Shown here: one piece after another, positions 20,763-24,570 of the stretch
Layout of the letters: the number at the start of each line of letters is the position of its first letter
Position numbering within the stretch: the stretch's first letter is position 1
Assembly: GCA_004321905.1 (NCBI GenBank)
Contig: SCQF01000039.1
Location: forward strand, 1-64,000
From: Verrucomicrobiota bacterium
GTDB lineage: Bacteria; Verrucomicrobiota; Kiritimatiellia; CAIQIC01
DNA length: 64,000 bases
Reading direction: 5' to 3'
Notes under the pieces: generated by a model
Databases searched by the model: none
Seen by the model: only the letters and a program-made list of their open reading frames with translations
Told to the model about the DNA's origin: nothing
Made by a program: the position numbers and the translations under genes

Positions 20763-21061
20763 ATGCAAGTGAGACAGGGATGGTTGCGGGGGAGTTTGAT
20801 GTTGGCCCTTATCGGCTGGTGCGTGAGCGCGCAGCCAGTCATGGCGCGCTATGTTGTGCTCCACTCATTCGCCAACGGCAGCGGCGATGGCGCCAGTCCG
20901 GTCGGGTCCCTGACGCTTTCGGGCTCCACGCTCTACGGCATGCCGGCCTCGGGCGGCTGGCGGGCATCTGGGATTTAGACGCGGATGGCCAACCCGCCGC
21001 GTGGCATCCCATCACCGGCTCGATACCCGGTTGGATCTTGCGCGGCATAGATCAGCCATAG
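20763..21061 (+). pseudogene. Deletion remnant of a GloVer/VCBS-like secreted repeat protein
   Basis: The reading frame starts at 20763 with GAGG upstream, a signal peptide (LMLALIGWCVSAQPVMA) and the opening of a GloVer-type tandem-repeat protein (VLHSFANGSGDGASP...LYGMPASGG). It stops at 20978. In the next frame the sequence continues as LAGIWDLDADGQP...GWILRGIDQP and stops at 21061. That segment matches the C-terminus of the adjacent large protein (LAGLWDLDANGQP-type, GWIMRGIDQP). The two parts join at GGCGGC, so a large internal deletion has fused the N- and C-termini out of frame. A protein of 71 residues could still be made. Confidence 0.65.
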
Positions 21062-21153
21062 ACTGGTTTACCCGCAGCCGTGGAGGTTAAAAGTGGATTT
21101 GCATAGTGTGTGCGAACTTGCAGTGATGAAGGCCTCCAACTAGGATGTGTCCC

Positions 21154-24100
21154 ATGAAAAATTTCAATCGGTGTGTGTCCTTTTTCGGTATTTGCGGTAC
21201 GCTGATGAGTAGCTGGGCTACAGTCCCGCCGCAACCGCCGAGCCTCGCGGTATCCAACGTCACGATCGTCGCCGGCGAAACGTTCACGCTGCCGCTGGAC
21301 GGCAACGATCCCGGCGGATTGCCCTTGACCTTTTCGGTCGTCTCCAACGGGGTGAGCGGCCTGACGCCCCGACTGGTCACCACCAACCGCACGTTGCACC
21401 TCAACGTCAGCGTCGGTGTGACGACCAACGGCGACCTGATGTTGGAGTTGTTTGAGCATCTCACACCCAAAACCACCGCCCGCATCATCAGCCTGGTCAA
21501 CAGTAATTTCTACAATGGCTTGACCTTTCATCGAATAGTCCAAGACTTCGTGGCGCAGGGCGGCGACCCCCATGGCGACGGCACCGGCGGCAGCGGCGTA
21601 ACCTTCGATGACGAATTCGTATCCGGCCTGACGTTCCAAGGCTTTGGTCAGTTGGCGATGGCGAACTCCGGCTTCGTGACCGGCAGCGCACCCTTGGGCC
21701 GCGACAACAACGATGCGCAATTTTTCATCACCGCGCCGAACCTCGCGGTGGGCGGCAGCGCAACACCGCCCCGGCATCTGAATTACCGGCATACGATCTT
21801 CGGTCAGTTGACTCACGGTTTCGATATCTTCGGCCAACTCATGGCCACACCGGTGGACGCCAATAATCACCCGCTGGACAACGTCGTGATCAATTCAGCC
21901 ACCATCATCACCAACCGACAGGCAACCGTGCTCTATTTGACGGCACCGACCAACGCCGTTGGCCCTGCGCCCGTTACGGTGCAAGCGCAGAACAGCGACG
22001 GCCTCTCCACGCAGGTTACCTTTCAAGTCACGGTGGTGGCCAACACCGTCAACAACCCACCTTTTTTTAATCCAATGCCCGCTGCGTTGGTGGTCACGCA
22101 AGGTATGGCAATCAACTTCCCCTTTGGGGCGTGGGATGACAACGGCGATTCCATGTCGTTAGGCCTGTGGAATGCTAATACCGGGAATATGATAACCAAT
22201 GTTTTTGCCTCCTATAACCCCACCAGCGGACTACTAACCTTGGCGCCTGTTTCCGACTTTCTCGGACGGGTGGAGCTGCTGTTTGGCGTCTGGGACGCCT
22301 ATGACCACAATGGTAACAGCACCAGCGGCGCGGCGGGTGACATTCAGGAATATGATTCGCAGCGTATCGCGTTCACCGTGGTCCGATCCAACCTTGTCAC
22401 CATCACGACGACGGCCAATCCGACGAATGGCGGCAGCGTGAGCGGTGGCGGTGAATATATTATTGGCAATACTATTGCATTGACGGCGACGGCGACGAAC
22501 GGCTGGGTGTTCACGAACTGGAACGACGGTAACACCAACAACCCGCGCACGGTCATAGCGGCGGCCGGCGGCGCGAGCTATACCGCCAACTTTGCGGTGG
22601 CGGCCACGATCACCGCCCTGCCCGGTGTGGCGGGACAGGGGACGGTTTTTGGTAACGGCGTCCATGCCTTGGGATCATCGGTTCCCTTGTTTGCCAGTGG
22701 CAGCATGGGCTGGAAGTTTACGAACTGGAGCGACGGCAACACCAACAACCCGCGCACGGTCGTGGCCAGCAACAGCACCTATACCGCAAACTTTGCCAGT
22801 GCCCAGCTGGCGGTATTACTCCAAGCAGGCAACGGCGGCATGGCGGGCTTGTGGACACTGGGCACGAATTATCTGCCGGCGACGTGGGCGACCGTGACCG
22901 GGCCGCTGGGCGCGAGCTGGGTGCTCCGCGCCATAGACCAGAACCGCATCCTGCTCCAACAGGGTGATGGTGGCCAAATGACGCTGTGGAACTTGGATGC
23001 CAACGGCACGCCCGTGAGCAGCGCCACCATCAGCGCCGCCCTCCCCGGCTGGATCGCCCGCGATCTGGATGGTAATCGTGTGTTGCTCCAAAATGGTGAT
23101 GGCGGCATGATCGGTATCTGGACGCTCGGCACCAACAACACGCCGATCGCCTGGTCATCGGTGAATGGCGCCGTGCCCAATCTGATCGCCCGCGCCCTGT
23201 GTGGCACCCGCCTCTTGCTGCAATTCGGCACCACCGCTTCGATGGGCTATTGGACACTCAACGGCAATAATGCCATCACCGCGTGGACGCCGCTCACCTC
23301 GGGCCTGCCGGCCGGCTGGATTCCGCGCTCCATGACCGACAACTATATTCTGCTCCAACAAGGCGATGGCGGCACCACCGCCCTGTGGGATCTGGACGGC
23401 AACGGCCAGCCGGTCGCTTTGCATACCATCAACGGCCCGCTCGCGGGCTGGATCATGCGTGGCATGGATCAGACGTTCCTCACCACACTCACCGTCGCCT
23501 CCAGCACGAATCTCGGCGGTGCGGTGACCGGCGGCGGCACATATTCCGCCGGTGCCAGTGTCACCTTAACAGCGACCGCCTCCAATGGCTGGATATTCAC
23601 CGGGTGGAATGACGGCCTGACGAACAACCCACGCAGGATAACGGTCGCTGCCGACGGCGGCACGTACACCGCCAACTTCGCACCGGGCGTAATCGTAACG
23701 CTGCAAGGCAACCCAGCCAGCGGCGGCGCCTTGACCGGCGCGGGCACCTACGGGGCCGGAACGTTGGTAGCGCTGAGCGCTCAACCGAACCTCGGCTGGA
23801 AATTTGCAAACTGGAGCGACGGCGACACGAACCAGACCCGCCAGATCACGCTGGAGGCGACGAGCACCAACCTGACGGCGAACTTCAGCTCGGCTCCGAT
23901 GTCGGTGCTTTTACAGGCCGGCGATGGCGGCATGGCGGGCCTCTGGGGCTTGGGTACCAACTACCAGCCCGAGACGTGGACAACCGTCACGGGAGCGCTG
24001 GGTAACGGCTGGGTGTTGCGCGCGTTGCACCAAAACCGTGCGCTCTTGCAACAGGGCGTGGGGGGCAAGATCGAGCTATGGGACCTCGGCACCAACGGCG

Positions 24101-24570
24101 CACCGGTCACGAAGTGGCCGGTCAGCGCCGCTCTCCCCGGCTGGATCGCCCGCGATCTGGATGGCAATCGCATTCTGCTCCAAGCCGGCGACGGCGGCCT
24201 AATCGGCCTCTGGACGCTCAGCACCAACAACACCCCGGCCACGTGGATGACGTTGAACGGCGCGGTGCCCGGCCTCGTTGCGCGTTCGTTGTCTGGCACC
24301 CGTATCTTGGTGCAATTCGGCGGCGGCACGTTGATGGGCTACTGGACGCTCAACGGCAGCAACGCCATCACCGCGTGGACGCAGATCAACTCCGGCCTGC
24401 CGGCGGGCTGGGTGTTGCGCTCGATGACTGATCGTTACATCTTGCTCCAAGCCGGTGACGGCGGCATGGCGGGGTTGTGGGACTTGGACGCGAACGGCCA
24501 ACCGATCGCCTGGCATGTGGTCAGCGGTCCCCTGCCCGGCTGGATCATGCGCGGGATTGATCAGCCCTAG
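21154..24570 (+). CDS. Secreted cyclophilin-type protein with two five-unit repeat blocks
   Basis: About 1138 residues with an N-terminal signal. Residues about 85-260 are a cyclophilin-type peptidyl-prolyl isomerase domain (TFHRIVQDFVAQGGDP with the catalytic Arg, QLAMAN, DNNDAQFFIT). Ig-like segments follow, then InlB/bacterial-type repeats (GWVFTNWNDGNTNNPRT). Two blocks of five units of about 44 residues come next (LLQxGDGGxxxLWxLxxN, then LPGWxxRxxDxNR), separated by two more InlB-type repeats. The units resemble VCBS/FG-GAP propeller blades. The start at 21154 has AGGA nine bases upstream. Likely extracellular adhesion or binding; isomerase activity is plausible because key residues are present. 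Confidence 0.75.
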   Translation: MKNFNRCVSFFGICGTLMSSWATVPPQPPSLAVSNVTIVAGETFTLPLDGNDPGGLPLTFSVVSNGVSGLTPRLVTTNRTLHLNVSVGVTTNGDLMLELFEHLTPKTTARIISLVNSNFYNGLTFHRIVQDFVAQGGDPHGDGTGGSGVTFDDEFVSGLTFQGFGQLAMANSGFVTGSAPLGRDNNDAQFFITAPNLAVGGSATPPRHLNYRHTIFGQLTHGFDIFGQLMATPVDANNHPLDNVVINSATIITNRQATVLYLTAPTNAVGPAPVTVQAQNSDGLSTQVTFQVTVVANTVNNPPFFNPMPAALVVTQGMAINFPFGAWDDNGDSMSLGLWNANTGNMITNVFASYNPTSGLLTLAPVSDFLGRVELLFGVWDAYDHNGNSTSGAAGDIQEYDSQRIAFTVVRSNLVTITTTANPTNGGSVSGGGEYIIGNTIALTATATNGWVFTNWNDGNTNNPRTVIAAAGGASYTANFAVAATITALPGVAGQGTVFGNGVHALGSSVPLFASGSMGWKFTNWSDGNTNNPRTVVASNSTYTANFASAQLAVLLQAGNGGMAGLWTLGTNYLPATWATVTGPLGASWVLRAIDQNRILLQQGDGGQMTLWNLDANGTPVSSATISAALPGWIARDLDGNRVLLQNGDGGMIGIWTLGTNNTPIAWSSVNGAVPNLIARALCGTRLLLQFGTTASMGYWTLNGNNAITAWTPLTSGLPAGWIPRSMTDNYILLQQGDGGTTALWDLDGNGQPVALHTINGPLAGWIMRGMDQTFLTTLTVASSTNLGGAVTGGGTYSAGASVTLTATASNGWIFTGWNDGLTNNPRRITVAADGGTYTANFAPGVIVTLQGNPASGGALTGAGTYGAGTLVALSAQPNLGWKFANWSDGDTNQTRQITLEATSTNLTANFSSAPMSVLLQAGDGGMAGLWGLGTNYQPETWTTVTGALGNGWVLRALHQNRALLQQGVGGKIELWDLGTNGAPVTKWPVSAALPGWIARDLDGNRILLQAGDGGLIGLWTLSTNNTPATWMTLNGAVPGLVARSLSGTRILVQFGGGTLMGYWTLNGSNAITAWTQINSGLPAGWVLRSMTDRYILLQAGDGGMAGLWDLDANGQPIAWHVVSGPLPGWIMRGIDQP

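Follow-up and report, generated by a model that had tools for sequence, protein, structure and literature searches.

A duplicated five-bladed propeller block as a candidate C-terminal attachment tail of secreted proteins in a bacterium of the Kiritimatiellia

The stretch of DNA analysed here (the window) comprises 64,000 nucleotides of contig SCQF01000039.1 from a Verrucomicrobiota bacterium of the class Kiritimatiellia (assembly GCA_004321905.1), and contains an open reading frame (ORF) of 1141 amino acids predicted to code for a secreted cyclophilin with two blocks of five repeat units, the second of which ends the protein. Each block is well supported by structure prediction as a closed five-bladed beta-propeller, and the same block is found at the C-terminus of otherwise unrelated secreted proteins. 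We tentatively favour, at a little short of an even chance, the reading that the block is an interchangeable C-terminal tail for attachment to the cell surface or matrix, most likely by binding carbohydrate. The features of the gene are as follows.

21145-24570, forward strand: whole gene, putatively secreted cyclophilin with duplicated propeller tail (ORF of 1141 amino acids)
21145-21225, forward strand: probable signal peptide (approximate limits), MKNFNRC followed by a hydrophobic stretch to SSWA, predicted from sequence
21418-21903, forward strand: cyclophilin (Pro_isomerase) domain, amino acids 92-253 (Pfam, E 8.2e-32, and alignment to solved cyclophilins)
22399-22800, forward strand: InlB-type (Flg_new_2) repeats 1 and 2, approximate limits (Pfam; DNA repeat family D3)
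22807-23475, forward strand: propeller block 1, five units starting at 22813, 22948, 23080, 23212 and 23347 (repeat analysis; AlphaFold2 model)
23479-23892, forward strand: InlB-type repeats 3 and 4, approximate limits (Pfam; DNA repeat family D3)
23899-24567, forward strand: propeller block 2, five units starting at 23905, 24040, 24172, 24304 and 24439 (repeat analysis; AlphaFold2 model)

Block 1 corresponds to amino acids 555-777, with units of 45, 44, 44, 45 and 43 residues starting at amino acids 557, 602, 646, 690 and 735, and block 2 to amino acids 919-1141, with five unit lengths identical to those of block 1, so that each block spans approximately 222 residues. The initial annotation, made from the sequence alone, had described two blocks of five 44-residue repeats; the five units per block and, to within a few residues, the coordinates were confirmed, whereas the units have 43-45 residues rather than exactly 44. 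Scored pairwise, the units of block 1 averaged 86.9, compared with a maximum of -3.6 in 1000 shuffles, which rules out chance repetition as their origin. Unit 4 is the most divergent and lacks the GDGG motif. Identity between corresponding units of the two blocks (0.68-0.78) is higher than between non-corresponding units (0.32-0.58), and the blocks are thus paralogous unit by unit, as the initial annotation had also stated. Block 2 is closer to the block of locus L017 (73 % identity) than to block 1 (70 %), and a tree of 13 such modules, from which three stand-alone proteins were excluded as too sparsely aligned, did not resolve the copies of the same genome. NCBIfam gave no match on the blocks of the window protein and Pfam only two sub-threshold matches, to W_rich_C (23.1 bits, cut-off 26.2) and to Y4YQ_C, an uncharacterised 53-residue model whose cut-off is barely exceeded by the relative L019, over 22 residues. 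Neither Pfam nor NCBIfam catalogues the block family or its role as a shared tail; the ring type itself is known.

The AlphaFold2 model of block 1, built from a three-row alignment of both blocks and the related locus L016, had a mean predicted local distance difference test score (pLDDT) of 89.0, a predicted template modelling (TM) score of 0.88 and 20 strands, which fall by their spacing into five groups of four. A second model, of the last InlB pair with block 2, again had 20 strands in block 2; its overall pLDDT was lower (72.9) because the InlB part was poorly predicted. Ring closure was judged from the strand count, the confidence of the model and the structural matches, and the closed five-bladed propellers suggested earlier are accordingly well supported as predictions, for block 2 at lower confidence than for block 1. 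An open solenoid or non-closing repeat is contradicted by the block 1 model. The chain would begin at strand B of one blade and finish at strand A, the N- and C-terminal strands together closing one blade. When chains ranked by Foldseek (for block 1, E down to 1.9e-5, with modest TM-scores over the query of 0.28-0.53) were re-aligned with VIA-align, the four best solved matches of block 1 were the glutaminyl cyclases 3mbr, 3nol, 2iwa and 3nok (Z 14.6-13.5, root-mean-square deviation 2.5-2.7, 172-175 of 223 residues aligned), followed by LRP6 (Z 12.1), and the same four chains led the list for block 2. Type I glutaminyl cyclases are described as five-bladed (PMC7948796). Tachylectin was neither among the best 50 Foldseek rows nor in the VIA-align list, which is no evidence of a different fold.

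In the genome to which the window belongs (G000; 2.53 Mb, 94 % complete), five ORFs carry a total of seven full blocks, and a fragment is also present. Matches at E <= 1e-3 were found in 4 of 96 relative genomes, its own included: G000, G077 (three matches), G086 (three) and G003 (one, weak). A profile search of 345 genomes of the class, in which the best 8 candidates per genome were scored, gave matches at E <= 1e-5 in five genomes, the added ones (G142 and G147) only distant, and 3 of 387 genomes drawn from the phylum had profile matches. One locus, L016, came from a search of genome contigs and is probably the same place as that on contig C119 of G077. Altogether 13 blocks were present in 11 ORFs of G000, G077 and G086, and all 11 ORFs end with a block. 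All 13 blocks are co-linear over the five units, with insertions of at most a few residues, and this unit-by-unit alignment indicates that the five-unit set is inherited as a whole. The N-terminal partners include the cyclophilin, a BspA-type leucine-rich repeat protein, a papain-family protease with BACON, NHL repeats (two proteins), GloVer repeats (two proteins; 'choice-of-anchor' in NCBIfam), an ice-binding domain and a weak L-type lectin match, with two partners unassigned. The block is a portable C-terminal domain on unrelated secreted proteins and is not tied to the cyclophilin. The ORFs of G142 and G147 code for stand-alone proteins that are approximately 300 residues long and have a hydrophobic stretch near the N-terminus followed by about five units (counted by eye, the unit scores being weak); hhalign matched their alignment to the 13-row profile with 98.4 % probability across 211 columns. 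A viral origin was rejected, as 86 pattern matches in viral contigs included no relative. In one partner protein from G077 (L022:2404-5130, forward strand) a domain, EDAYREEVLAGL...VDGHRTDDWVKRCNS, is inserted within the NHL repeats; by eye it resembles the N-terminal domain of the G000 protein L019:3379-6873 (reverse strand), and Pfam names neither domain.

Relatives of the cyclophilin part of the window protein, with 64-66 % identity, are present in all three other genomes of the genus (G001, G002 and G003), the orthologue of G001 having 63 % identity over amino acids 96-417 (BLASTP). The orthologues of G003 (941 amino acids) and G001 (918 amino acids) end instead in a five-unit module of the FG-GAP type, which matches Pfam FG-GAP (E 5.4e-7) and is, by eye, preceded by a different stretch; the frame of the G002 orthologue runs off its contig. 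The orthologues of G003 and G001 also have an extra insertion of approximately 100 residues ahead of the cyclophilin core. The FG-GAP module gave 43 matches in G003 and 20 in G001, of which 54 of the 63 were full-length (231-245 amino acids) and were judged for position, the other 9 being partial; two further modules, in G055 and G007, were excluded from the count as parts of longer arrays. The distance from module to stop codon was at most 5 residues in 48 of the 54 and 6-7 residues in 4, the last 2 being followed by 227 and 294 residues. These following residues (in L137 and L140) are repetitive and alike by eye. No FG-GAP module was found in G000 (4 of 4 candidates scored), and no window-type block in G001 or G002 in the search of the 96 genomes with block 1, all candidates being scored in G001 and G003; the lone weak G003 match to block 1 is that genome's own FG-GAP module, L027. 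Judging from these searches, the two tail types do not occur together in one genome. In G003, genes with an FG-GAP tail are often near neighbours (contigs C12, C51, C76, C97, C102, C122 and C175), which suggests local gene amplification.

Plain membership of the FG-GAP/VCBS family (PF13517) was rejected for the block, since the window protein had no match to it at E <= 1. Of the two outcomes that the initial annotation had named as refuting its reading, extended non-closed repeats and a known VCBS-only protein, neither was obtained; Pfam gives the blocks no VCBS or FG-GAP match, and the kinship to these propellers is probably a distant one. In profile comparisons (hhalign), window-type and FG-GAP modules matched with 87 % probability (E 4e-6) as whole modules and 50 % (E 1.6e-4) as units. 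With scores of 45.0 (modules) and 20.3 (units), the two comparisons did better than every one of 200 column shuffles each, which reached at most 27.7 and 18.2, and better than reversed profiles, which scored 13.3 and 7.9. Control profiles of NHL and GloVer units gave at most 0.4 % with the window-type units, and BLASTP of the blocks against the FG-GAP set gave E down to 6e-6 within that small set. This profile and BLASTP similarity makes common descent of the two modules likely. The blade motif order, the register of start and end, the five units and the C-terminal place in the sister-species proteins are alike; they differ in that the calcium-type DxDGDGxxD loop of FG-GAP is replaced in the block by a shorter DxDGNR-like loop, to which, given common descent, it was likely shortened, and in that the Pfam model is silent on the block. 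Any deeper placement of the family is tentative, because the profile search of the PDB instead finds only WD40 chains. A simple WD40 assignment was rejected as well, the PDB profile matches being weak, and Pfam WD40 had no match in the window protein at E <= 1.

Three features mark the VCBS supercluster, namely DxDxDG in loop AB, the residues G and W in loop CD, and GW in loop DA'; tachylectin-like members lack DxDxDG, and in tachylectin-2 and PVL the GW contributes to the sugar pocket (Pereira and Lupas 2021, PMC8023676). With strands assigned A-D by hand from the strand limits of the model, DxDxDG was present in 1 of 65 window-type units. Counted from unit 1 to unit 5, GW was present in 8, 12, 1, 13 and 13 of the 13 modules and a W close to loop CD in 13, 12, 13, 10 and 12; the G of loop CD occurred in some blades only. 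Tachylectin-2, a lectin whose five blades are built of 47-residue motifs, relies on multivalent binding (PMC4735018). The block resembles it and the bacterial tachylectin-like propellers in having one chain with five blades of approximately 45-47 residues, predicted secretion, almost no DxDxDG, GW in loop DA' of four of the five blades and, in most modules, a W near loop CD of all five, and differs from them in giving no sequence match in the Pfam and PDB profile searches and in lacking the GW of blade 3, in being the C-terminal tail of large proteins and in that its sugar binding is putative.

We arrive at the attachment tail introduced above from this motif pattern, the constant C-terminal location, the unrelated nature of the partners and the use of one tail type per genome. 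The N-terminal part would do the work of each protein, here a cyclophilin that putatively isomerises prolyl bonds outside the cytoplasm, the InlB repeats would act as spacers and the propeller would tether the protein to a polymer that belongs to the surface or matrix of the same cell, probably a carbohydrate of its envelope or slime. As in tachylectin-2, sugar pockets may be built by the GW conserved in the D-to-A' loop together with the W of loop CD, and duplication of the spacer-plus-propeller tail in the window protein could have given higher avidity. We infer secretion, attachment, the self-target and the sugar ligand, and of these the self-target is the least secure step. The broader proposal, that whole five-bladed propellers serve as a genome-specific C-terminal tag which directs unrelated secreted proteins to the surface or matrix of the cell itself, that one species uses the type without the calcium loop and its sisters an FG-GAP type, and that orthologues switch tag with the genome, is a possibility that we hold with considerable doubt.

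Several observations weigh against the attachment tail. Internal copies of the block occur in two proteins (the window protein and L019), and the module is therefore not solely a terminal signal; the GW is missing from unit 3 in 12 of 13 modules; and the same-genus genome G002 had neither tail type in the block and FG-GAP searches. The PDB profile search found only weak WD40 chains (best E 6.1e-6, TBL3), and WD40 proteins usually bind proteins. Neither Pfam Tachylectin nor Pfam FG-GAP matched the window protein at E <= 1, and solved tachylectins were not among the PDB profile matches at E <= 10, in a search whose profile filters lose weak matches. G000 also has an exosortase and PEP-CTERM domains (PF07589; seven matches, one of them under the cut-off, elsewhere than in the window protein), showing that another sorting route exists and that the propeller tail would be an additional one. 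Several of these PEP-CTERM matches are in very short frames (contigs C14 and C65), two within 100 bases of a contig start, and the PEP-CTERM genes may sit at assembly breaks. The window protein itself ends in LPGWIMRGIDQP, which lacks the PEP motif, the transmembrane helix and the basic end of PEP-CTERM. PEP-CTERM/exosortase and other 'choice-of-anchor' tails are like the block in being interchangeable C-terminal elements on unrelated secreted ectodomains, GloVer included; the block differs in being a whole folded domain of approximately 222 residues rather than a short transmembrane-plus-basic tail, and in having no identified processing enzyme.

The tail could instead serve as a signal for export or sorting that a dedicated machine recognises, comparable to type IX C-terminal domains, and not as a ligand-binding anchor. 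The strict C-terminal place in 11 of 11 window-type proteins and 52 of 54 FG-GAP modules, the many kinds of partners and the single tail type per genome would all be expected of such a signal, whereas internal copies in two proteins and the stand-alone, putatively secreted proteins of about five units in G142 and G147 would not. No machine was identified either; a search for type IX SprA_N gave no match, the control genomes being silent too. We regard this explanation as unlikely, and think it equally improbable that the block is an ordinary substrate-binding module for foreign polysaccharides, similar to a carbohydrate-binding module, whose C-terminal place is an accident of domain shuffling. 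VCBS-type propellers are indeed typically tied to carbohydrate recognition and found on secreted multidomain proteins (PMC8023676, PMC9218822), but the partners here are not mainly glycan-degrading enzymes, and one tail type per genome whatever the partner fits a self-target better.

Less likely still is a WD40-like propeller for protein-protein docking, through which secreted proteins would be assembled into complexes. The block's sequence matches to solved structures are confined to WD40 proteins (TBL3 with E 6.1e-6, the others weaker), and its GDGG..GLWDL stretch resembles the WD40 motif, yet profile and BLAST similarity is to the FG-GAP modules of the sister species. A catalytic propeller, such as a glutaminyl-cyclase-like enzyme, appears very improbable. 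The type I glutaminyl cyclases (3mbr, 3nol and 2iwa) are the closest solved five-bladed fold to block 1 (Z 14.6, root-mean-square deviation 2.5, 175 residues aligned at best), but they are enzymes with only 5-10 % identity to the block in structural alignments that cover 172-175 of its 223 residues, the blocks have no enzyme match in Pfam or NCBIfam, and a shared fold shows no function.

In the remainder of the window gene, translation could equally well start at the in-frame ATG at 21154. The FHR-x5-F-x2-QGGD stretch of the cyclophilin domain is intact in alignment with the solved cyclophilins PPIL2 and PPIL1, and with both the domain match and this active-site stretch the protein can be assigned by sequence to the PF00160 cyclophilins. 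Pfam identified four Flg_new_2 (divergent InlB B-repeat) domains in two pairs, one pair ahead of each block, and the stop codon directly follows the last residue of block 2. The InlB-type linkers and the cyclophilin proposed in the initial annotation were thus both found by Pfam, and the secretion it proposed is predicted from the N-terminus. The cyclophilin domain seems to be nested in an immunoglobulin- or tandem-95-like segment (window 21217-22392), for which NCBIfam tand_rpt_95 gave an E of only 0.058. Upstream of the gene the block search found a relic of another family member.

20763-21061, forward strand: relic in which the start of a GloVer-type gene, in one frame, is run into the end of a last propeller unit, in another frame

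The propeller part of the relic was matched at 20927-21055 (E 1.6e-8) and, in the profile search, at 20933-21055 (E 9.9e-13), and it ends with the same GIDQP and stop codon. The relic may result either from a true deletion or from an error of the assembly.

To our knowledge, it is largely an open question how such bacteria retain their very numerous secreted multidomain proteins, and a compact domain at the end of proteins whose N-terminal activities can be recognised offers direct access to protein placement. The fold of the block is known and its use as a tail is unusual; a described C-terminal propeller tail from this bacterial group was not found in the open-access PMC literature. The results suggest that FG-GAP propellers, for which 'adhesion' is often the sole reading, can serve as standard tails at the end of proteins. 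Orthologous cyclophilins with different tails constitute a natural swap experiment, and, if the reading as a genome-specific tag is true, the propellers would be a folded-domain counterpart of the PEP-CTERM and type IX tails.

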